Shown here: in pieces, positions 7,146 through 30,097 of the stretch
Layout: each line of letters opens with the position of its first letter
How positions within the stretch are numbered: the stretch's first letter is position 1
Source: an uncultured Gemmiger sp.
Lineage (GTDB): Bacteria; Bacillota; Clostridia; Oscillospirales; Ruminococcaceae
Length of the DNA: 48,675 nucleotides
Direction: 5' to 3'
NCBI GenBank assembly: GCA_944382835.1
Contig: CALWNP010000017.1
Location: 1-48,675 of the forward strand
Made by a program: the position numbers and the translations under genes
Notes under the pieces: model-generated
What the model was told of the DNA's origin: nothing
Databases searched by the model: none
The model's input: only the letters and a program-made list of their open reading frames with translations

Positions 7146-7484
7146 TCAGTCGTAGTAGGTCACATCAAACACCGCCTGGTAGCGGTAGCGCTTGGTGTCT
7201 GTGTCGGTAAAGTTGTAGTCGCTGTTCAGCCGCACCGCCGCGATCTCCGGCAGAGCCTGTGCCGAAAACATGGCAGCCTTGACATCCTCATTCAGGCAGG
7301 CGGCCTCATAGAGGGTGGCGCCGTAGGACTGTACGGCCAGGATGGCCGTGTTGATCCGGTTGGTCCGGCTTTCCCCGGTCTTCTCCACCACAACAAAGGA
7401 GGCCGGCGCGTTGGCCGGCCGCTCCATCCCGCAGGAGACCTGCAGTGTGGCAGAGATGTGGTCCAGAATCGTCTTTTCGATCAT
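7146..7484 (-). CDS. Tail terminator / tail-completion-like protein
   Basis: A 112-residue protein starting MIEKTILDHISATLQVSCG. It is a small alpha/beta protein with a C-terminal phrase RYRYQAVFDVTYYD, typical of minor tail proteins that cap the tail tube where it meets the head. It overlaps the preceding gp10-like gene by 4 bases and directly precedes the tail tube gene, which is the place of the tail terminator in HK97-like phages. Assignment rests mainly on gene order, size and the C-terminal strand pattern. Confidence 0.75.
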   Translation of the reverse strand: MIEKTILDHISATLQVSCGMERPANAPASFVVVEKTGESRTNRINTAILAVQSYGATLYEAACLNEDVKAAMFSAQALPEIAAVRLNSDYNFTDTDTKRYRYQAVFDVTYYD

Positions 7485-7744
7485 TCCTTTTTCACCTTCA
7501 ATCCCGTGCCGAACACCTTCAGCAGGGTGTTGTTCCGGTAGTTGTCCCGCCGGGCGGCGGCCGAAGAGGGAAAGACCATGGCCGAGGCGCGGGTTTTGCC
7601 CACATAGCCGTCGTCGGCCTCATAGCCCTCCCCCGCCTGGGCCGCCTTTTCCTTGGCCACCTGGACGCAGGCTTCCATGATTTCCCGGCTCTGGAGCAGG
7701 TTCCGGACCCCTTTCCGGTTGAGTTTGATCCGGATCTTAGCCAT
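7481..7744 (-). CDS. HK97 gp10-like head-tail joining protein
   Basis: An 87-residue protein starting MAKIRIKLNRKGVRNLLQSREIM. Small basic proteins beginning with this Lys-rich strand and a helix with 'LLQS..IM' are typical of the gp10 family of minor head-tail proteins; the following GYEADDGYVGKTRASAMVF segment is also common there. It overlaps both neighbours by 4-8 bases, so the genes are translationally coupled. Confidence 0.8.
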   Translation of the reverse strand: MAKIRIKLNRKGVRNLLQSREIMEACVQVAKEKAAQAGEGYEADDGYVGKTRASAMVFPSSAAARRDNYRNNTLLKVFGTGLKVKKE

Positions 7745-8069
7745 AGCGTTCCACCTTGACCTTTTTGTTCCAGCAAAGGGGGATCAGATCCTCGATGCCC
7801 TGGGTGACATCGCCATAGGCGCGGAACTTGCAGCCGAAAAATTCCACCGTGGCATCGGTCCAATCATGGGTGTCCCCCTTGGGGATGCCCAGGGTATAGG
7901 CAAGCCGCTTTCCGTTCAGCTGCAGTTCGTTGACCAGGTCCTCGGCCGTGGGTTCCCCGATCAGCACATTGGGAACTTCAACGGGGATTTCCTCATACAC
8001 CGGCGCATGGAATGGATCGGTCCCGGCTTGCCGCTTCTCGTACAGAAGGACGGTGATTCCGTGAATCAT
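7737..8069 (-). CDS. Head-tail closure / minor capsid protein
   Basis: A 110-residue protein starting MIHGITVLLYEKRQAGTDPF. The phrase VEVPNVLIGEPTAEDLVNELQLNGKRLAYTLGIPKGD is typical of a small head completion protein in Firmicutes siphophages that follows the connector. It overlaps the connector gene by 4 bases and the gp10-like gene by 8. The protein probably acts as the stopper between portal and tail. Confidence 0.75.
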   Translation of the reverse strand: MIHGITVLLYEKRQAGTDPFHAPVYEEIPVEVPNVLIGEPTAEDLVNELQLNGKRLAYTLGIPKGDTHDWTDATVEFFGCKFRAYGDVTQGIEDLIPLCWNKKVKVERYG

Positions 8070-8446
8070 ACGATCAGATCCTCCACAGGGCTTCGGGTGC
8101 CGATCCGGTTGCCCAGCCCCAGCAGATGTTTTTCCGTCTTGGTGAGATACAGCTCCCCCACCGAGCCGCCTGTCATGGTCCAGCTCTGGGTGTACCCCAG
8201 CGCGGAGGCAGACCCCTGGGAGGCGCCGGTGGGATAGGTCACCGCCCCGGGCCCCGCCATGCCGGAATCCAGCTGCCGGCGCACCATGCGGCAGGATACC
8301 AGCCGTTTGACCGCGTCATCCGCCTGGCGATTGTACCCATCGATCACCACCGCCGCCTCTTCCAGCAGCGAATCGCAGAGCTTCTGCTCCTCCGACGTCA
8401 TGGTGCGGAAGCCGGCTTCCACATCCTCCACCTCGGCATATTTCAT
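8066..8446 (-). CDS. Head-tail connector (Gp15/Gp19-type adaptor)
   Basis: A 126-residue protein starting MKYAEVEDVEAGFRTMTSEEQKL, helical in the first 70 residues (CDSLLEEAAVVIDGYN). This opening is characteristic of the Gp19/Gp15/Gp42 family, the adaptor ring that binds the portal. A C-terminal beta segment ends SPVEDLIV. It follows the capsid and a small linker gene, as in HK97-type head modules. Confidence 0.85.
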   Translation of the reverse strand: MKYAEVEDVEAGFRTMTSEEQKLCDSLLEEAAVVIDGYNRQADDAVKRLVSCRMVRRQLDSGMAGPGAVTYPTGASQGSASALGYTQSWTMTGGSVGELYLTKTEKHLLGLGNRIGTRSPVEDLIV

Positions 8447-18579: not shown

Positions 18580-18873
18580 TCAGATAGGCCGCCGGGTCAT
18601 CGGCAGCGTAACGCCTTGTTCCTCCAGGGTCTGTTGGCAAAACAGATCTCCCAGTTTCTCGGTTTGGTATTCCCGGTACTTTTCCTTCACCGCCGGAAGC
18701 ATCTTGATCACACGGCGCACCGTGCGCGGGGCCAGTCCGGCCTGGAGCATTGCCAATCCCCACTGGTACTGCGCCCGAAGGGCCACATCCCGCTGGACCT
18801 CTTCGATTTCCTGTACCACCGTCTCGTGAATGAGCTTCTTCTGCTTGTAGCTCAAAGGGACTCTTGCTTTCAT
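18580..18873 (-). CDS. Hypothetical helical phage protein
   Basis: A 97-residue protein starting MKARVPLSYKQKKLIHETVV. It is almost wholly helical, with basic surface (APRTVRRVIKMLPAVKEKYREY). Its start overlaps the stop of the PAPS-reductase-like gene by 4 bases (ATGA), so the two are coupled. No family recognised. Confidence 0.65.
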   Translation of the reverse strand: MKARVPLSYKQKKLIHETVVQEIEEVQRDVALRAQYQWGLAMLQAGLAPRTVRRVIKMLPAVKEKYREYQTEKLGDLFCQQTLEEQGVTLPMTRRPI

Positions 18874-20117
18874 TGCGGATCCACCTCCTGTTCGTCAAAA
18901 GAGAGCTGGCCCAGCACCTGGCCCGGTGCGTTGCGCCATTCCACTCCGATATAATCCAACACCCTGCCCCAGCCGTACCAGCTGCCGTCTGCATCCTGGC
19001 AGACATGGGTCATCCAGAATTCCCACTCCCGCGGATTCTGCTCCCGCAGCCGATCAAAACGGTTGGGGCGTTTTTCCATCTGAATTCCAAAACCGCACAT
19101 GGTACAGCCGGTGCGCTGCGCCAGGGTGGTGCGCAGAACCCCGCCGGGCCCGCGGCGGATCTCGCCATACTCCGCCGGGACCGGCACCTTGAGATCCAGA
19201 GCCAGCTGCAGCAGGTCCTGCCGGTTGAAGATGGCAAAGGGCGCACTGCGGATGGTGCTTTTGCCCCAATAGTTGCAGCCGTGCATCATCAGGCTTTTCT
19301 GCCGTCTGCCGCCCTCGCTGGCCATCAACCCCAGGTAGGGCACGCTGTTATGCCGCTTGGCCCAGTCATCGCAGGGCTTTTCCTTCAGGTAGTAGCAACA
19401 CCGATCAGACACCCGGAAGGGCGCCGCCGCGTAACCCTGGGCTGCCCCCTCTGTATCGGCCCCGCCAAAGAGGGACAGCCACCGCCGGGACAGCTGCATC
19501 CGGCTTTCGCTTTTCCATCCGCCGTATTCTCCCGTTTCTCCGGTGAGGATGGCGTGGCGCACCGTGGCGTTGTCCGGTGTGGGGTTCTGGAGCAGCGCGA
19601 TCTTGCCCGCAATCTCCTTGGAGAGCACCGGCCAGCCGAATTCCCGGATCACCTGCACCTTGGGCTTGAGGGGTTGCAAAAAGACCATCCGGGGTTTGGC
19701 CGGAACGGCATCCAGAACTTCCTGCTCCCGGATCCGCTCTGCGGCATCTGGGAGGTTGTCGATCTCGACCTGGGTCAGGGCACCGTGGTCGTGTTCCCAT
19801 TCGGCATAGCGCCGATCCATTTCTTCTGCGATCTTCCGATGCACGGCCTGTACTCCCTTCTGTTCCAGGGTGGAACAGCTGATGCAGGGCAGGTGCAGGC
19901 CAATCTCTTCCAGAAAATAGTGCAGGGTAATGGAATCCAGCCCGCCCACCGAGAGATGGGTGTTTCGCCCTTCCCTGCTGTTGCGCTGGTAAAAGGCTTT
20001 GGCCACCTGTTCGGCATGGTAGACCTTGCGGTCATAGGGCCATGCCATCATCTGTTTCATCAGGGCGATGTTCTCCTCCGCTCCGGTCTCGGCCATGATC
20101 TGCCGAACGGTTTTCAT
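18870..20117 (-). CDS. Phosphoadenosine phosphosulfate reductase-family protein (phage)
   Basis: A 415-residue protein starting MKTVRQIMAETGAEENIAL. Residues ~55-62 contain the PP-loop variant SVGGLDS (SGGxDS) for ATP/PAPS binding; Cys residues are present in CISCSTLEQKG, RCCYYLKEKPC and GCTMCGFGIQ, the latter three typical of the [4Fe-4S]-carrying PAPS-reductase-like proteins of phages. These are common in Firmicutes phages and related to DndC. The real reaction is unknown; sulfur chemistry on DNA, or redox or nucleotide metabolism, has been suggested for relatives. It forms a coupled group with the DUF1064 gene. Confidence 0.85.
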   Translation of the reverse strand: MKTVRQIMAETGAEENIALMKQMMAWPYDRKVYHAEQVAKAFYQRNSREGRNTHLSVGGLDSITLHYFLEEIGLHLPCISCSTLEQKGVQAVHRKIAEEMDRRYAEWEHDHGALTQVEIDNLPDAAERIREQEVLDAVPAKPRMVFLQPLKPKVQVIREFGWPVLSKEIAGKIALLQNPTPDNATVRHAILTGETGEYGGWKSESRMQLSRRWLSLFGGADTEGAAQGYAAAPFRVSDRCCYYLKEKPCDDWAKRHNSVPYLGLMASEGGRRQKSLMMHGCNYWGKSTIRSAPFAIFNRQDLLQLALDLKVPVPAEYGEIRRGPGGVLRTTLAQRTGCTMCGFGIQMEKRPNRFDRLREQNPREWEFWMTHVCQDADGSWYGWGRVLDYIGVEWRNAPGQVLGQLSFDEQEVDPQ

Positions 20118-23164: not shown

Positions 23165-23554
23165 TTACTCGATGGTTGCCACCTCGGGCAGCCACATCTT
23201 GGGGTTGAAGTTCAGCGTGTACTTGTACTGGTTCACGTCGCCGGTGGTCACATCCTCGACCACATAGGTCACGTTGTCACTGAGACCGATGAAGTGCTTT
23301 TTGTACTCACCGTTCTCATCCTCGACAACAATCTCCAGCTGATTGTCAGCCGGGTCAGCTGTGATGCTCATCTTGCCGGTCATCTGAAACAGGACATCGC
23401 CCTGCAGGCAATTGATGACGGTGATCTGGCGAACGTCGTTGAAGTTGTCCGCCTGTTGGGACAGGTTATAAGAGACTCTGTCAGCTTCGGTGGAGCAGCC
23501 GGTCAGCATCATAGCAGCCAGCGTCACCGCCGGGATGGTAAGTGCTTTTTTCAT
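23165..23554 (-). CDS. Phage lipoprotein (beta-sandwich, superinfection-exclusion-like)
   Basis: A 129-residue protein with a clear lipoprotein signal: MKK, hydrophobic stretch, then lipobox MLTGC with the acylated Cys near residue 20. The mature part starts STEADRVSYNLSQQADNFND, a sequence very common in gut siphophage lipoproteins described as beta-sandwich lipoproteins. It lies in the early region close to the repressor. Phage lipoproteins in this setting can block DNA injection by related phages; that is known for other lipoproteins (e.g. Ltp of TP-J34) and inferred here. Confidence 0.8.
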   Translation of the reverse strand: MKKALTIPAVTLAAMMLTGCSTEADRVSYNLSQQADNFNDVRQITVINCLQGDVLFQMTGKMSITADPADNQLEIVVEDENGEYKKHFIGLSDNVTYVVEDVTTGDVNQYKYTLNFNPKMWLPEVATIE

Positions 23555-23945: not shown

Positions 23946-23974
23946 TTGACATATTACTCAATTTGTGTAATTCT
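23946..23974 (+). promoter_or_regulatory. Repressor promoter with embedded operator
   Basis: TTGACA at 23946-23951; the best -10 is TAATTC/AATTCT at 16-17 bases. The 15-mer ACTCAATTTGTGTAA (23956-23970) lies in the spacer and is nearly the same as the operator in the lytic promoter, suggesting autoregulation. Confidence 0.6.
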
Positions 23975-23998
23975 AAAACAGAAAGAAGGTGTGTATTT

Positions 23999-24595
23999 GT
24001 GTCTCGGATCAGCGAGCTTAGATCCCAAATGGGGATTACAATGAAAGAAGCGGCCCAACAGCTCGACATGCCCTATACCACTTATGTCAACTATGAAAAA
24101 GGCACCAGAGAACCCAACTCTGAAACACTGATAAAATTGTCCAAATTCTTTGGAACCACCATTGATGATCTGCTGGGCAGCGGCAATATTCCTTCTGGCT
24201 TTTCTCCCCTTCCTGAGATGAAAGCCATCCCCTTGGTGGGGGATATTGCTTGTGGCACTCCGATTACCGCTGAAGAAAACATTATTGCCCGTGTCGGTGT
24301 TCCCGCAGCATGGCGAGCGGATTTTGCCTTAACCTGCCATGGCGACAGTATGGCGCCTAAAATTCAAGATGGGGATATCGTCTGCATTCGCAAACAGCCC
24401 ACTGTAGAAAATGGTGAGGTTGCTGTAGTGCGAATCGACGGTGAAGCGACGTTAAAACATTTTTACAGAACTGGTGACACCGTTACCCTGATGCCTGATA
24501 ATCCTACCGCTTGTGCTCCACTGGTCTATAGCGGCATTGAAATCAACCAACTCGTTATTGAAGGCAAAGCTGTCGGCATCTGCCGCGGATTATAA
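23999..24595 (+). CDS. CI/LexA-like phage repressor (XRE HTH + S24 peptidase)
   Basis: A 198-residue protein, start taken at GTG 23999 (VSRISELRSQMGITMKEAAQ) with GAAGGTG 8 bases upstream. Residues ~1-60 are an HTH_3 domain (LDMPYTTYVNYEKGTREPN). The C-terminal S24 domain shows the cleavage-region CGTPITAEE, catalytic Ser in LTCHGDSMAPKIQDGDIV and catalytic Lys in EATLKHF. Such repressors keep the prophage silent and self-cleave when RecA filaments form during DNA damage. It faces the Cro-like gene across an operator region and is the main immunity repressor here. Confidence 0.93.
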   Translation: MSRISELRSQMGITMKEAAQQLDMPYTTYVNYEKGTREPNSETLIKLSKFFGTTIDDLLGSGNIPSGFSPLPEMKAIPLVGDIACGTPITAEENIIARVGVPAAWRADFALTCHGDSMAPKIQDGDIVCIRKQPTVENGEVAVVRIDGEATLKHFYRTGDTVTLMPDNPTACAPLVYSGIEINQLVIEGKAVGICRGL

Positions 24596-24630: not shown

Positions 24631-25824
24631 ATGAAGAAGCAGTACCCCCCTATTGTGTGGAAACTATGCTCCGTTGCAATGTATATCCTTGGCGGTTTTT
24701 TCGTTTTGATGGCAATCGCATGTTTTGCCGCAACCATTTTCCTTTCCATCCCATTTATACTTCTTGCAATATTTTCTTTTGCCTGTGCCAAGAGCTTTGC
24801 AAGAGAAGCAAAAACCGCCAAATCGAAAAAAGATATTTCTCGCAATTATGTGCGGATGAACAGTCCTGGGCGCGATCTTTCGGAGTCCGCTGCATGCAAC
24901 AAAATCACCACGAAAGCCCGCCCCATCCAAACGGTAAAGGATTTGGCTTCCATCCGTTCCTATGTTGTGTTGGATACCGAGACCACCGGCCTCAGCCGCC
25001 GGAATGATAGAATTATAGAAATTGCTCTGATCTGCTACGATAGCGGACAGGAAGTCAACCGCTTTTCGTCTCTTATCAATCCAGGAATGCCCATCCCTGC
25101 TGCCGCCACCCGTATCAACCATATCCGTAACTCCGATGTGGCAAATGCCCCGTCCATTGCTGATGTAATGCCTACCATTTTGCAGCTGATTGACGGTCGG
25201 ATCATTATTGGCCACAACATTACATTTGATCTTGGTTTTTTGGGATACGCCATGCCCAAAGAAAGCAGTTCGATCGCCGTCGAATATATCGACACCCTCG
25301 CTTTGGCACGACGGGCTTTCCCAGGCCGTTCCAGCTATAAGTTGGCGGACCTTGTTTCCGAACTCGGCATCTCCGATACACAGGAGCATCGGGCCCTGGG
25401 AGATGTCGAACTCACTGCAAAACTTTTTACTTTCTGCTGTCAGGAGCTTGCAGAGAAACATGCAAAAGAGCTTGCAGCCCGCCGGGCGCAACGGGAACAA
25501 GCCAAGGCAGAGAAACTCGCCCGTTTCGGATGGTCTCCCATGATCAACAAAAATTTCGTTTTTACCGGTGATTTTCAGCATGATCGTAACCAGCTCGAAG
25601 AATTTCTCGACCAGATCGGTGCCAATCTGCGGGATAAGGTCAACGGCAACACCGACTATCTTGTTAAGGGAGATGTGACGAATCTCCCGACTTGGGCCTT
25701 GGAACGCAAATACCAGAAAGCGGTTTCCCTGATGCAAGACGGGAAAAAGATTAAAATCATCACCGAAAGAGAGTACCTTGCTTTGGTTCAAGATACGATA
25801 AAATCTTCACCCGGAAATTTGTGA
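24631..25824 (+). CDS. Membrane-anchored DnaQ-type 3'-5' exonuclease with C-terminal BRCT domain
   Basis: A 397-residue protein. Residues ~8-30 and ~33-53 are two hydrophobic segments, then a basic linker. Residues ~108-270 are a DEDDh exonuclease: VLDTETTGLS (D115, E117), HNITFDLGFL (D200) and EHRALGDVE (H253, D258) give the complete catalytic set. Residues ~275-300 are a charged helix; residues ~305-385 form a BRCT domain (FVFTGDF...LEEFLDQIGA..TDYLVKGD). DnaQ-BRCT proteins occur in Firmicutes, but anchoring to the membrane and placement between a phage repressor and integrase are unusual. The gene is followed by a DUF898 gene after 26 bases. Likely lysogenic cargo; a defence or DNA-surveillance role is inference. 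Confidence 0.88.
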   Translation: MKKQYPPIVWKLCSVAMYILGGFFVLMAIACFAATIFLSIPFILLAIFSFACAKSFAREAKTAKSKKDISRNYVRMNSPGRDLSESAACNKITTKARPIQTVKDLASIRSYVVLDTETTGLSRRNDRIIEIALICYDSGQEVNRFSSLINPGMPIPAAATRINHIRNSDVANAPSIADVMPTILQLIDGRIIIGHNITFDLGFLGYAMPKESSSIAVEYIDTLALARRAFPGRSSYKLADLVSELGISDTQEHRALGDVELTAKLFTFCCQELAEKHAKELAARRAQREQAKAEKLARFGWSPMINKNFVFTGDFQHDRNQLEEFLDQIGANLRDKVNGNTDYLVKGDVTNLPTWALERKYQKAVSLMQDGKKIKIITEREYLALVQDTIKSSPGNL

Positions 25825-25850
25825 GGACGGATCGAAAAGGAGTTGTTTCT

Positions 25851-26156
25851 ATGGGCAATTCATACTTTGATGGTGGCCTTCTGCAACTGATCTGCTGGAG
25901 GATCCTCGGTATCTTGATCACCGTCTGTACCTTCGGAATCTGCTATCCCTGGGCTTTTTGCATGGTGTATGGCTGGGAGGCCAAGCACACGGTGGTGGAC
26001 GGTCACCGTCTTTATTTTGACGGGACCGCCTTGCAGCTGTTTGGCAATTGGATCAAGTGGCTGCTGTTGACCATCATCACCCTGGGCATTTACAGCTTCT
26101 GGCTCGGGATTGCTCTGCGGAAATGGAAAACTAAGCACACCCATTTTGCCAATTAA
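25851..26156 (+). CDS. DUF898-like small membrane protein
   Basis: A 101-residue protein starting MGNSYFDGGLLQLICWRILG at ATG 25851, with AAAAGGAG upstream. The repeated pattern 'YFDG.LLQL..W.I' and 'LYFDGTALQLFGNWIKW' with two hydrophobic segments and the end ALRKWKTKHTHF is the DUF898 signature seen in many Firmicutes. The function of DUF898 is unknown. It sits between the DnaQ-BRCT and Mrr-type genes on the same strand. Confidence 0.8.
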   Translation: MGNSYFDGGLLQLICWRILGILITVCTFGICYPWAFCMVYGWEAKHTVVDGHRLYFDGTALQLFGNWIKWLLLTIITLGIYSFWLGIALRKWKTKHTHFAN

Positions 26157-26229
26157 CAAAGGATGTGCCAAGCGCAGTTTTCCATAGTTTGGAATGTATC
26201 TATCAGCGTTACCATTACAAGGAGAATCT

Positions 26230-27558
26230 ATGAAAGCCCCAACAGATTCAAAAAAGTCTGATCATAGTGTCGATACCATCCATAGCTCAAATCGTGATTT
26301 TTCCATGAGTGAACAGTCCCATGCCGAAAAGGAAGAAATCAAGGAACTGGCTATGCAGTACTACGATGCTGCTGTACAATGTGTATCGGATGCGGGTGCT
26401 GCCAAGACCGCACTCCTACAGCGCCGACTGAATTTGAGTTATCCCGTAGCCGCCACAATAATGGACATGATGGAAGCGAATGGTGTAATTGGGCCATATT
26501 GTGGACCACATCCCAGAGCAGTTTTGATTCCTTCGTCGAACAGTGAAAAAAGTTCTTTTGAAGTTTCCCTTCAGCCATCACTTCCCGAAGAGCCCCAGTT
26601 TCACTCCTCTTCTCATTTTGTTTCCTGTATGGACTTGATTACCCAAAAGGGTACGGCTTCGGCAGATTTGTTAACCAATTCCTTGGGACTAAATAAAGAT
26701 CTAGCAGAAGCGCTTATTCATATTTACGAAAATGATGGTTTAATTGGGCCAGACTTGGGAAATGGCGTTCATCATGTATATTTACCATTAGAAAAATGGA
26801 AGCAGATGCGTCCCCAATATGCACAGTCTCCCGAATCCACTACAACTGTTCCAACATCTTCCCCACAATCTACCGCTCGCCTTTCATCCCCAAAGCCCGC
26901 TGCTCGCCCATCTGCTGCAAAGCCTACCGCTCTTCGTTCCACTGATCGCCTTACGCTAGCGGATTTAGACAGGATGGAAGGTCACAAATTTGAACACGCG
27001 TGCGCAGCAATCCTGATTGCCAATGGATACTCCCATGTGAAGGTTACTCGGGCAAGCGGCGACTATGGAATTGATGTGTTGGCCAACAGGGATGGTCACC
27101 ATTACGCCATTCAATGCAAATGCTATAATTCTCCTGTAGGCAATCACGCAATTCAGGAAGCCTTTTCAGGGGCAGCCTACTATGGTGGTCGAATTCCGGT
27201 GGTTATGACAAACCAGAGTTTTACCGGAGCAGCCAAACGGATGGCAAAAAAATTAAATGTACACCTATGGGGCCGTAATGTACTATCTAAATTGCTGATT
27301 ACCTACAACAATATCCCCCTATATCAGCAAATTCTTCATGCCATATTTAGGTTTTTATTGGGAACGCCTTCCTCTGTAATGGCGAGTTTGGCGTTTTTGT
27401 TTGCCCTGTATGAGACATTCAATACCACCGAGACAAGGGATCCTTTCATTAATCTAATAGTCTGTATCCTAGTGTGGGCTATTACAAAGATTGTTCTTAT
27501 TTATTGGAGAAAAAAGCTTTTGAGAAAAAGGTTTTGGAGAAAAATATTTCTGAAATAA
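26230..27558 (+). CDS. FtsK-gamma-like winged helices fused to an Mrr-type endonuclease and C-terminal membrane segments
   Basis: A 442-residue protein starting MKAPTDSKKSDHSVDT at ATG 26230 (AAGGAG upstream). Residues ~35-100 and ~125-187 look like two FtsK-gamma winged helices: LLQRRLNLSYPVAATIMDMM..NGVIGP and LLTNSLGLNKDLAEALIHIY..DGLIGP. A Ser/Thr/Pro/Ala-rich linker (~195-240) follows. Residues ~243-352 form an Mrr-catalytic (PD-(D/E)XK) domain: GHKFEHACA (E255), SGDYGIDVLA (D282) and YAIQCKCYN (Q295, K297). Residues ~380-400 and ~405-426 are membrane segments. FtsK-gamma recognises KOPS-like sequences, Mrr cuts foreign or modified DNA. An intact active site, AT-rich DNA and the cargo position suggest a membrane-tethered restriction effector; this is inference. 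Confidence 0.85.
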   Translation: MKAPTDSKKSDHSVDTIHSSNRDFSMSEQSHAEKEEIKELAMQYYDAAVQCVSDAGAAKTALLQRRLNLSYPVAATIMDMMEANGVIGPYCGPHPRAVLIPSSNSEKSSFEVSLQPSLPEEPQFHSSSHFVSCMDLITQKGTASADLLTNSLGLNKDLAEALIHIYENDGLIGPDLGNGVHHVYLPLEKWKQMRPQYAQSPESTTTVPTSSPQSTARLSSPKPAARPSAAKPTALRSTDRLTLADLDRMEGHKFEHACAAILIANGYSHVKVTRASGDYGIDVLANRDGHHYAIQCKCYNSPVGNHAIQEAFSGAAYYGGRIPVVMTNQSFTGAAKRMAKKLNVHLWGRNVLSKLLITYNNIPLYQQILHAIFRFLLGTPSSVMASLAFLFALYETFNTTETRDPFINLIVCILVWAITKIVLIYWRKKLLRKRFWRKIFLK

Positions 27559-27560
27559 AC

Positions 27561-27594
27561 AAAAACGCCCCACCGGCGGCAACCGGCAGGGCGT
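27561..27594 (-). terminator. Minus-strand terminator between the Mrr-type and recombinase genes
   Basis: ACGCCC..CCGG pairs with CCGG..GGGCGT; the run of T follows on the minus strand only. It would stop leftward transcription from entering the cargo genes antisense. Confidence 0.6.
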
Positions 27595-27697
27595 CAAGAT
27601 AGATCAGCTTGCCCGAAGGCAGAATCCGACCCACTTCAAAACGGATTATACCACCTCCGGACAGGCTTTGACAAGTGTACCCTGGAGGTGTTTTTCT

Positions 27698-30097
27698 ATG
27701 GCGAAAAAGAACTACAATTACGATGCTCCGGTTGCCTACGGGTATTGCCGCAAATCGACCACCGAGCAGCGGGAGGAATCCATCGAAGCCCAGCAGCGCG
27801 CCATTGTGGCCTATGCTGCGGCCTGCGGATACAACCTGGTCAAGATCTACAAAGACCACGGGAACAGCGGCCGCAATGGCGAGCGGCCACAGTTTGCCCA
27901 GATGGTGCAGGATGCCTCCGCCGGCGGGGCCCAGTTCATCATCGTGCACAAGCTGGACCGTTTTTTCCGCAACGCGGAGCGCCAGACCCTGGTGGAAGCC
28001 CAGCTGCGCCGGCACGGGGTCCGGGTGCTCTCGGCGTCGGAGCACTTCGACGACAGCCCCCAGGGCCAGTTCATGCGCAACATCACCAAGGCCATCAACC
28101 AGTGGTACAGCGCCAACCTGGCCCAGGAAGTCATGAAGGGGCTCCGGGAAAACGCCATTGCCTGCCGCAACACCGGCGGTCCGCCGCCGTTGGGCTATGC
28201 GGTGGACAAGGCCACCGGGAAGTTTGTCCTGGAACCGAAGGAGGCTGAGGCGGTGCGGATCATCTTTCGGATGTATCTGCAGGACGCCGGGTACACCGCC
28301 ATCATCGAGGAGCTGAACCGCGGCGGCTATCTGACCCGCCGGGGCCGTCCTTTCGGGAAAAACAGCATTTACGAGATCCTGCGCAACGAAAAGTACACCG
28401 GAGTTTATGTGTGGAACCGTCTGGCCCCCGCCGATCCCGACGGCCATGTGAGCCGCCGGCGGCTGAAGCCCCGGTCCGAGTGGGTCTATGTGGAGAACGG
28501 GATGCCCCGGATCATCGAGCCGGAGGACTTCCGCCGGGCGCAGAAGGAGATGGAAAAGCGCCGCCACAAAAGCGGCCGACAGCGTGCCAAGGTGTTCTAC
28601 CTGCTTTCGGGGCTGGTCTACTGCGGTGGCTGCGGCGGGCCGATGTCCGGCGAGGTGCGGCGGTACAAGAGCCACCACAAGGACCCTGTGGAGTATCGCT
28701 ATTATGCCTGCACCACCAAAAAGCGGATGCACTCCGCCGGGGACCATGTGCGGTCGATTCCGGCCGACAAGCTGGAAAGCGCCGTGCTCCAGTATCTGCA
28801 GAACATCGTCCTCCACCCTGACACCATGGAGGCCCTGTGCACTGCCGTCCTGGCCAGCATGCAGCAGGAGGACAGCCCGGCCGACAAGGCAGCCAGCCGG
28901 CGCAAGCAGGCCGCCGCCCTGGAACCGAAGATCAACCGGCTGTACACCGCCATCGAGAACGGACTGGACGGCCCGGACACCATCCAGCGGATCAAGGAGC
29001 TGCAAGCACAGCGCGGGGCGTTGCTGGAGGAGGCCGAGGCCCTGGAGCGGGAGGCGGGCGTCACCACCGCCACGGTGGAAAAGCTGTGCCATGCCTGGGC
29101 CGGGATCCGCCTGGACCACCTGCCGTCCGAGCAGCTGCGCATGCTGATCCGGGAGCTGGTGGAGAAGATTATCGTCTACGACGACGGCACCGATGCCCAC
29201 CGGGTCCGGATTGTGCTGAACCCTGCCAAACGCGATCCTGAAGAGCTGCCGCCCGACCTGGCAGTGGCCTCATTGGGGGATCTGGGAACACCTGTGGGTG
29301 GATGTGTTGGCAGTCTACCCCTGCCAGAAGTACCATCGGATGGGTTGTTGCCCGGTCCGGTGGTTTTTCTTTTTGTCCTGTGGGACAGCCGTATGGTTCG
29401 GCTGTCCCCTTTTTGTTGGCAAAACGGTATCTGCAAAAAAGCCCCTCCCCCGACGATGGCCGGAAAGGGGCGGCAAGAGATAGCGTTACAGAATCTTCTC
29501 CATCCCGATCTTCTGGGGCTTCAGGCCGCAAGCCTGGTAGAAAGCCATGGCCTTGTCGTTGCCGTTCCAGACGTTCAGGGTCACGTTGTAGCAGTCGTGG
29601 GCACGGGCGTAGTCCAGCACCGCCTCGTAGAGGGTTTTGCCCACATGCTGGCCGCGGCAGGCCTCGTCCACGCAGAGATCGTCGATGTACAGGCTGCGCA
29701 CCGGGGTGAGGATGTTGTCATCGGGATGCTGCTGGAAGATGCAGAAGGCATAGCCCAGCAGGCGGTCGTCCTCGTCGGCGGCGGCCAGGATGGGGCGCTG
29801 GTCGTCGTGCAGAATCTCCAGCAGCTGCTCATCGGTGTATTTGCGGCCGCCGCACTTGAAGAGGTCGGGCCGGGCCTGATGGTGGATCAGCTCCACCTGC
29901 ATCAGCAGCTCGTGGATGCGGGGCAGATCCTTTTCCATTGCCATACGAATTTTCATTGGTTGCGCTTCCTTTCCTCCATTTTGGACAGTTGTTGTTCCCG
30001 ATTATTGTACCACAATCCGAACCACAGCAAAAGCCCCCGGCGGGGGTCCTTGCGGGCCATTCGCCGGGGGCTCAAAAAGGGAGAGACGGTTACTTGA
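27698..30097 (+). CDS. Large serine recombinase (prophage integrase), 3' end uncertain
   Basis: Start at ATG 27698 (MAKKNYNYDAPVAYGYCRKS) with CTGGAGGTG upstream. The resolvase domain (~10-155) has the catalytic Ser in GYCRKSTTEQREESIEAQ and the usual FIIVHKLDRFFRN motif; a recombinase domain (~165-270) has PPPLGYAVDKATG; a zinc-ribbon (~315-365) has CGGCGGPM with two Cys pairs; a coiled coil (~400-470) follows. Recognisable protein ends near residue 510-520 (about base 29250). The frame nevertheless stays open to TGA at 30097, through an intrinsic terminator at 29382-29414 and antisense across the whole GNAT gene. The functional protein probably ends near the terminator; a frameshift, or an attachment site inside the 3' end, may have removed the true stop. 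Confidence 0.8.
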   Translation: MAKKNYNYDAPVAYGYCRKSTTEQREESIEAQQRAIVAYAAACGYNLVKIYKDHGNSGRNGERPQFAQMVQDASAGGAQFIIVHKLDRFFRNAERQTLVEAQLRRHGVRVLSASEHFDDSPQGQFMRNITKAINQWYSANLAQEVMKGLRENAIACRNTGGPPPLGYAVDKATGKFVLEPKEAEAVRIIFRMYLQDAGYTAIIEELNRGGYLTRRGRPFGKNSIYEILRNEKYTGVYVWNRLAPADPDGHVSRRRLKPRSEWVYVENGMPRIIEPEDFRRAQKEMEKRRHKSGRQRAKVFYLLSGLVYCGGCGGPMSGEVRRYKSHHKDPVEYRYYACTTKKRMHSAGDHVRSIPADKLESAVLQYLQNIVLHPDTMEALCTAVLASMQQEDSPADKAASRRKQAAALEPKINRLYTAIENGLDGPDTIQRIKELQAQRGALLEEAEALEREAGVTTATVEKLCHAWAGIRLDHLPSEQLRMLIRELVEKIIVYDDGTDAHRVRIVLNPAKRDPEELPPDLAVASLGDLGTPVGGCVGSLPLPEVPSDGLLPGPVVFLFVLWDSRMVRLSPFCWQNGICKKAPPPTMAGKGRQEIALQNLLHPDLLGLQAASLVESHGLVVAVPDVQGHVVAVVGTGVVQHRLVEGFAHMLAAAGLVHAEIVDVQAAHRGEDVVIGMLLEDAEGIAQQAVVLVGGGQDGALVVVQNLQQLLIGVFAAAALEEVGPGLMVDQLHLHQQLVDAGQILFHCHTNFHWLRFLSSILDSCCSRLLYHNPNHSKSPRRGSLRAIRRGLKKGETVT
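29382..29414 (+). terminator. Intrinsic terminator of the recombinase gene
   Basis: GGGACAGCC pairs perfectly with GGCTGTCCC around a 9-base loop, then CTTTTTG. It lies inside the open frame of the recombinase, so transcripts ending here would have no stop codon in that frame. Confidence 0.85.
29435..29471 (-). terminator. Terminator of the GNAT gene
   Basis: On the minus strand GCCCCT..CC pairs with GG..AGGGGC followed by TTTTTT, 15 bases after the GNAT stop. It is convergent with the recombinase terminator; the prophage-chromosome junction is probably near here. Confidence 0.75.
29486..29956 (-). CDS. GNAT family N-acetyltransferase
   Basis: A 156-residue protein starting MKIRMAMEKDLPRIHELLMQ with AAAGGAAG upstream. 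The GNAT fold is clear: the N-terminal helix pair, LLGYAFCIFQ strand, LYIDDLCVDEACRGQHVGKTL (motif A with R/Q-x-x-G-x-G/K acetyl-CoA loop), NVTLNVWNGNDKAMAFYQACG (motif B) and the C-terminal strand. The substrate cannot be told. The gene is probably chromosomal and lies at the prophage border; a TACAAT-type promoter with extended -10 stands about 60 bases upstream. Confidence 0.9.
   Translation of the reverse strand: MKIRMAMEKDLPRIHELLMQVELIHHQARPDLFKCGGRKYTDEQLLEILHDDQRPILAAADEDDRLLGYAFCIFQQHPDDNILTPVRSLYIDDLCVDEACRGQHVGKTLYEAVLDYARAHDCYNVTLNVWNGNDKAMAFYQACGLKPQKIGMEKIL
30032..30072 (-). terminator. Terminator after lacZ-type gene
   Basis: AGCCCCCGGCG pairs perfectly with CGCCGGGGGCT (11 bp) across a 19-base loop; TTTTG follows on the minus strand. 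It closes the glycoside operon. Confidence 0.8.

Follow-up and report, generated by a model that had tools for sequence, protein, structure and literature searches.

Several described systems share one part or another with the protein studied here, P3, which is encoded in a prophage of an uncultured Gemmiger sp. (GenBank assembly GCA_944382835.1, contig CALWNP010000017.1, positions 1 to 48,675; this whole stretch of 48,675 nucleotides is called the window below) and joins FtsK-gamma domains to an Mrr-type nuclease and C-terminal membrane helices. Lysogens of Staphylococcus aureus phage 80alpha transcribe the lysogeny module starting at cI, immunity gene tha-1 included (PMC11087260). P3, whose expression in the lysogen we infer, would resemble Tha as a prophage immunity gene of the cI operon, but Tha is a HEPN protein and not an Mrr nuclease, and it has an inhibitor gene, ith, of which no counterpart was noticed here. 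Gamma domains in phage proteins are reported from the small terminases of Bacillus phages Sam46 and Sam112, which are fused to FtsK_gamma (PMC8190038, available portion) and of which the Sam46 protein was also a fold match; these are terminases, whereas P3 fuses gamma to a nuclease and is encoded in a lysogeny module. In Escherichia coli FtsK, a single region that includes residues 1289-1297 (RQFRIGYNR) binds both the FtsK-orienting polar sequences (KOPS) and XerD (PMC5052618, available portion), and the gamma domains of P3 differ from those of FtsK/SpoIIIE in being tandem, motorless and, in both copies, devoid of the recognition-helix arginines. Among nucleases, protein VUE37434.1 of Roseburia phage Jekyll (Mrr family, PF04471) shares the catalytic domain of P3 and is encoded after a predicted toxin-antitoxin pair and separated from the downstream integrase by two annotated genes, but has a different N-terminal part and was not among the matches of our own gamma hidden Markov model (HMM). 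Finally, the Mrr-like C-terminal part of the Zorya protein ZorD (PADLOC) matches P3 residues 248-372 (1.9e-21), whereas its helicase part is unmatched and no other Zorya protein was found among the four proteins scanned, to which the search was confined.

P3 is preceded by genes for an exonuclease (P1) and a small membrane protein (P2), and all three lie on the plus strand, flanked by an S24 repressor gene (23963-24595) and a serine integrase gene (from 27698), a layout proposed in an original prediction made from the sequence and borne out by the coordinates and Pfam assignments. Left of the block, the minus strand encodes head, portal, terminase and tape-measure proteins, which shows that the window holds a prophage. 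Because repressor and cargo are codirectional and the gaps short, expression of the cargo in the lysogen is likely, and we regard repressor, cargo and integrase as a lysogeny cassette with three unrelated passenger genes, probably cotranscribed with the repressor in the lysogen.

P3 joins FtsK-gamma domains to an Mrr nuclease domain with a complete active site

P3 (26230..27558, plus strand; 442 amino acids), assigned from Pfam, a structure model and a fold match, lies in an open reading frame (ORF) that opens at 26194, with a ribosome site indicating the ATG at 26230 as start. The first FtsK-gamma copy (26359..26529) is recognized by both the Pfam gamma profile and a fold match, and the second, divergent copy (26617..26787) by a second Pfam stretch only, with a match of our own gamma HMM at residues 142-198 coming from a model whose seed includes this copy. 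The Mrr catalytic domain (26965..27294) matches Mrr_cat (PF04471) at 7.1e-26 and 91.0 bits, the curated cut-off being 21. Its PD-(D/E)xK-type active site is intact, with E255, D282, Q295 and K297 in what we take to be their catalytic roles, and the residues E, D, D, Q and K are invariant in 68/68 aligned rows, P3 included. Two C-terminal hydrophobic helices (27352..27501) appear as hydropathy windows at residues 387-405 and 418-436 of the 454-residue ORF and as long helices in the model. The FtsK_SpoIIIE motor (PF01580) had no Pfam match in P3 and scored above cut-off in two relatives (loci L089 and L106; loci and genomes are cited by our L and G numbers where they need telling apart).

These results agree with much of the original prediction: domain searches recovered FtsK-gamma, Mrr and BRCT matches (the Pfam BRCT score of P1 being slightly under cut-off), the active sites of both nuclease genes proved complete (the five DEDDh residues of P1 and E255/D282/Q295/K297 of P3), and hydrophobic windows occur in P1, P2 and P3. 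The pairing of gamma with Mrr had also been called unfamiliar from known defence systems, and we found no description of it in the open-access literature, screened mostly at listing level, nor a mention in the accessible parts of PMC11318856 and PMC5883640. From its sequence we rate P3 as a new form of Mrr-type membrane nuclease, the gamma pairing being the new part.

Gamma-Mrr fusions recur in phages and bacteria

Relatives of the Mrr domain were sampled from 61 viral-contig loci and the best 80 of 385 genome loci, and gamma was called in them with our own HMM (independent E-value < 1e-3); a scan with P3 as a single protein returned no relatives in viral contigs. Gamma-bearing Mrr proteins were found at 8/61 viral loci and 2/80 genome loci. 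Pfam placed both FtsK_gamma and Mrr_cat above cut-off in all 10 of these HMM-found fusions and additionally in two proteins, L039 from a fecal phage record and L329 from a scanned set of 13 further Mrr loci, giving 12 Pfam-valid fusion proteins besides P3. L332 is gamma-bearing too and is excluded from this count because its 408-residue protein is identical to that of L183, and L115 and L217 were left out since their gamma scores (24.4 and 14.8 bits) fall below the Pfam cut-off of 30.6. The fusions are a recurrent set in phages and bacteria, mostly gut Clostridia where hosts are known. Gamma precedes Mrr in ten of the twelve and follows it in L113 and L329, the latter (688-2103) a membrane protein from a genome of the same order.

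The nearest whole-length relative of P3 is L089 (33% identity over P3 residues 9-428, C-terminal helices included), which directly precedes a serine integrase and carries an FtsK_SpoIIIE match in which GASGSGKS resembles Walker A and the Walker B stretch appears altered on inspection by eye. In L106 (4645-6348) the motor match scores 52.4 bits and lacks a Walker A motif. A further Mrr protein, L043 (3534-5372), reaches 17.0 bits for the FtsK motor (cut-off 24) and has no Pfam gamma match. The motor-like parts of L106 and L043 look degenerate, a picture that would fit loss of the motor with retention of the nuclease.

On a tree of the Mrr domain, P3, L089 and the gamma-less Mrr protein L116 form one supported set (100/98). 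Across its 98 rows, 13 of them with gamma, the gamma label changes 11 times, with at least four changes forced by well-supported branches, and a single origin of gamma appears in 0% of 200 bootstrap trees, in a tree built on few columns and with 41/95 inner branches open. Shuffled labels average 12.5 changes against the 11 observed, so the label is hardly clustered. Because of these changes on the Mrr tree, we conclude that fusion of gamma to Mrr, or its loss, has happened repeatedly. Elsewhere, no gamma-like domain above chance was detected by HMM or hhalign between the membrane helices and Mrr of the Gemmiger relatives L003 and L004, and Pfam gave no gamma match in L032, a protein of genome G019; the model of L151 shows three helices in the gap between membrane helix and Mrr, with no gamma chain among the 50 matches listed, in which this middle part was barely probed.

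The three genes share a slot and do not look like one unit

The region between repressor and integrase had been named in the original prediction as the usual site of lysogenic conversion genes, and each of the three genes does recur there in other prophages. In 13 loci judged by eye (including L115 and L217, with gamma below cut-off), a helix-turn-helix (HTH) or CI-like repressor lies at most four genes upstream in 10 and at most two genes upstream in eight, an ImmA/IrrE-like peptidase, named by eye, stands between repressor and fusion gene in several of the 13, and an integrase follows at most three genes downstream in seven, the records of L039 and L217 ending soon past the gene. As a control we used 842 six-frame ORFs of at least 150 amino acids from viral loci L051-L149, partly spurious, of which 79 had an integrase within 1.5 kb by similarity. 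The same was true of 5/8 viral gamma-Mrr ORFs (Fisher p 4e-4), a figure that is favoured by some integrase and repressor queries having been drawn from the fusion loci, of 14/55 gamma-less viral Mrr ORFs (Fisher p 8e-4) and of 14/38 viral relatives of P2 (Fisher p 1e-5); gamma-bearing and gamma-less viral Mrr ORFs compared directly give a Fisher p of 0.047.

Gemmiger relatives L032 and L033 carry the order repressor, ImmA-like peptidase, membrane Mrr protein and integrase, with at least one gene before the integrase; in L033 the membrane Mrr gene is separated from the integrase by a DUF3800-like ORF (7320-8168, named by eye), another passenger of the slot. PdpSau was considered as a precedent for the slot and dropped, as its gene sits in a lysis module (PMC10127798) and lends no support.

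Where the original prediction treated the three genes as a possible unit, the neighborhoods speak for each gene recurring alone. We scanned 230 records (the window and L001-L229) for P1 and P2 (phmmer, 1e-3) and for Mrr (HMM, 1e-6), and more than one of the three was held only by the window and its own copy L001, with 0/228 among the other loci, in flanks of at most 10 kb and often 1.5 kb, beyond which a distant partner could be missed. In G019, which like G030 is assigned to the genus of the genome studied here, the homologues of P1 (L267) and Mrr (L032) lie on separate contigs. Most likely, judged on these sequences, P1 and P2 act independently in the same slot.

The recognition-helix arginines of gamma are kept in some sisters and lost in P3

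The suggestion that the gamma domains serve as sequence-directed DNA readers is plausible for part of the family and weakened for P3. We aligned the gammas of 11 of the 12 fusions (all except L329) and both P3 copies with those of FtsK. The arginines at E. coli positions 1297 and 1300, of which R1300 is presumably a KOPS contact, are kept in FtsK of E. coli, Pseudomonas aeruginosa and Gemmiger and in six fusions (L089, L092, L101, L106, L117 and L150). L113 and L183 keep the arginine at 1297 and have K and H, respectively, at 1300; L039 keeps 1300; and neither arginine remains in L104, L112 or the two P3 copies. From sequence, some sisters could therefore plausibly read host KOPS, and such reading is unsupported for P3 because both of its gammas lack the recognition-helix arginines.

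A candidate restriction nuclease of the lysogen

We see about an even chance that P3 is a lysogen-expressed, membrane-tethered restriction nuclease, a reading based on the codirectional repressor and cargo, the tha-1 precedent, the completeness of the active site and the presence of hydrophobic helices. P3 would be made in the lysogen together with the repressor, its winged helices would dock it on DNA through their altered gammas, and the D-QxK site of its Mrr domain would cut DNA arriving or handled at the membrane, above all that of a second phage, so that a gamma-Mrr nuclease may protect its host cell from infection by further phages. If the pairing is functional, phages would have turned a reader of chromosome direction into the DNA-contacting part of a nuclease, and the fusions, with motor, motor remnant or no motor and with an intact or altered reader, are a ready set for testing this.

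Several observations pull the other way. PADLOC models match P1 and P3 partially and none does so full-length: on P1 a PDC-S48 model and a CRISPR-associated DEDDh model cover the exonuclease domain, and on P3 the ZorD, PDC-S02 and LmuA models cover the Mrr domain; P2 had no PADLOC match. Gamma is rare among Mrr loci, at the frequencies given above for viral and genome loci, and so is not needed for the slot. Three Pfam-valid fusions (L112, L117 and L183) have neither repressor nor integrase nearby and L106 has no integrase, and an integrase lies within 1.5 kb of just 2/78 gamma-less genome Mrr ORFs, for which reason most Mrr relatives in genomes must be placed outside such a slot. The recognition-helix positions 1297/1300 of P3 read V/T in copy 1 and L/A in copy 2. 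Among the named phage records inspected, a P1 relative lies near the integrase in three of five (not in L232 and L234, two Clostridioides difficile phages) and an annotated integrase was present in 0/2 of the stretches fetched around a P2 relative (L235, L236).

The alternative that survives best, which we nevertheless consider unlikely, is that the three genes are ordinary passengers without a selected defence function and that gamma is simply a handy DNA-binding domain. Gamma does occur in the Sam46 and Sam112 small terminases and as lone gamma genes of unknown role (PMC8190038, available portion), P2 is common among prophages (38 viral loci), and P1-like sequences occur in 245 phage records; the invariance of the active-site residues across all aligned rows, the repeated joining or loss of gamma, the two domain orders and the enrichment in the slot argue against it. 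The restriction reading can also be extended, tentatively and as an improbable case, to the proposal that FtsK-gamma/Mrr proteins are a distinct phage-borne restriction class derived from the host chromosome pump, in which gamma (with the motor in L089-like forms) would meet DNA at the membrane and Mrr would cut DNA lacking the proper polarity signals, self being marked by sequence polarity and not by methylation; P3 would then represent a branch that has no motor and a shifted specificity, and a new antisense RNA, the candidate element described below, would seal its slot off from the integrase. If true, this would suggest discrimination of self from non-self DNA without methylation.

Slightly less probable than the passenger explanation is a maintenance or timing factor, in which the gammas would bring the nuclease to the segregation machinery (XerD, FtsK/SpoIIIE or the division site), aiding the prophage or killing cells that lose it. 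FtsK-gamma binds KOPS DNA and XerD through the same region, and in our alignment the first gamma copy of P3 retains the position of R1289, the salt-bridge residue for XerD (PMC5052618, available portion), and has lost R1297 and R1300. A location at the division site would fit the membrane helices, but P3 differs at most other residues of the 1289-1297 surface, and no obvious antidote gene was noticed among the three genes, with no search aimed at one. To our knowledge, serine-integrase phages do not need dif, which also counts against this explanation. Least probable of all is a nuclease of lytic host takeover, acting by degrading or tethering the host chromosome: although the six sister gammas with both recognition-helix arginines could read host KOPS, which is distributed over the chromosome, the cargo is codirectional behind the repressor with the structural genes on the opposite strand, and the gammas of P3 itself are altered.

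The accompanying exonuclease P1 and membrane protein P2

P1 (24631..25824, plus strand; 397 amino acids) is a membrane-anchored DEDDh 3'-5' exonuclease with a C-terminal BRCT domain (Pfam RNase_T 1.2e-34, BRCT 7.5e-4) and an N-terminal hydrophobic window at residues 25-43. It matches the phage DEDDh-BRCT exonucleases of PHROG 192 at 6.4e-61 over residues 88-388, both domains included, and all five DEDDh residues (D115, E117, D200, H253 and D258) are present; the slightly sub-threshold Pfam BRCT score is backed by PHROG 192 and by a DNA-ligase BRCT. A single-protein scan found no P1 relatives in viral contigs. The closest relatives in genomes are those of G019 (56% identity), G022 (51%) and G130 (38%), with the order repressor, P1-like exonuclease, serine integrase in G019 and G130 and the order P1-like exonuclease, tyrosine integrase in G022. 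The PHROG 192 exonucleases of Streptococcus and Staphylococcus phages align with about 70% of P1 and occupy the same slot, near the integrase and on the repressor side, in S. pneumoniae phage IPP62 (L230), S. aureus phage vB_SauS_I73 (L231) and the satellite Javan542 (L233), but the S. pneumoniae and Staphylococcus rows listed share only 23.7-26.5% identity with P1.

P2 (25851..26156, plus strand; 101 amino acids) is a small DUF898-like membrane protein (Pfam DUF898 2.2e-10) with two hydrophobic windows; its ORF opens at GTG 25821, and an upstream ribosome site indicates the ATG at 25851 as start. Its viral relatives are 52-85% identical. One of them, in L061 (2371-3579), has a long C-terminal extension (402 amino acids), with an HTH gene upstream and an RNA-like element and serine integrase directly downstream.

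An RNA-like element faces the integrase leader

Between P3 and the integrase lies a conserved two-hairpin RNA-like element (27557..27637, minus strand), antisense to the integrase leader. A promoter-like site, TTGTCA-18-TATAAT (27645..27674, minus strand), with like sites in 14 aligned loci, and an intrinsic terminator at its end (27595-27564, minus strand; terminator scan) enclose about 80 nucleotides. Related DNA occurs in 21/150 genomes, its own included. A model built from 14 sequences (R1), whose rows include the window copy, matches that copy at 86.3 bits and in the 150 genomes has matches in 43 at E <= 0.001 and, at 50 bits or more, in 24 genomes (its own included) at 30 places. The search that scored the window copy also gave weaker matches at viral loci L051, L061 and L113 (32.8 to 34.7 bits), and of its 51 matches to E 0.1 many are likely due to chance, some of them in the window; an exact DNA pattern of the element found nothing in viral contigs.

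Covariation was assessed on 30 matches (26 genome places at 50 bits or more, one weak match and the three viral ones). Helix 2, the terminator, shows two-sided changes in 12/13 pairs and helix 1 in 4/8; 0/500 shuffles attain these values and slid structures have much lower scores, in an alignment that was fitted to the structure and has related rows. Of the 30 genome places, 26 were tested, and in 24 of these the element is antisense to and directly 5' of a recombinase ORF of the tyrosine or serine type identified by similarity, with an integrase-like ORF also present at the remaining two (L310, 1e-136; L315, 1.5e-4). The viral loci repeat the arrangement: L113 has an HTH gene, a gamma/Mrr protein, the element and an integrase, and L051 and L061 have a repressor or HTH gene, a P2 relative, the element and an integrase, with an extra ORF before the element in L051. 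The closest Rfam families, ctRNA_pGA1 and sar, both score below the gathering threshold, and no description of the element was found in the literature, screened at listing level.

If made, the RNA could, to judge from its position, reduce the expression of the integrase from a lysogenic transcript reading through the cargo genes. If transcribed, the element would be an RNA family tied to gut prophage integrases and might explain how the cargo is expressed in lysogens without triggering excision. Separately, at 27652-27690 on the plus strand, the ribosome site of the integrase (GGAGGTG) can pair with an upstream CACCTCC in the leader, which is also the promoter spacer; the fold is weak (z -1.7), and this inverted repeat is retained in most of the 14 aligned loci, altered in some of them.

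Other features of the prophage

The module opens with the repressor (23963..24595, plus strand), which combines HTH and S24 peptidase domains (Pfam HTH_3 1.2e-13, Peptidase_S24 5.9e-27), and an RDF-like (recombination directionality factor) gene lies at 23165-23554. The cargo was originally singled out as AT-rich, which is true of the block but does not set it apart, as the repressor region and the stretch at 16-18 kb are AT-rich too. The recognized domains of the serine integrase (27698..28798, plus strand; Pfam Resolvase, Recombinase and Zn_ribbon_recom) lie in a frame that stays open to 30097 and would encode 799 amino acids, and a close relative in G019 (L267, 4756-6405) stops at about 549. 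The last part of the frame is domain-free and overlaps a GNAT-like ORF on the opposite strand; perhaps the junction of prophage and host removed the stop. The prophage also carries a phosphoadenosine phosphosulfate reductase-like gene at 18870-20117 on the minus strand (PHROG 424, 1.9e-22).

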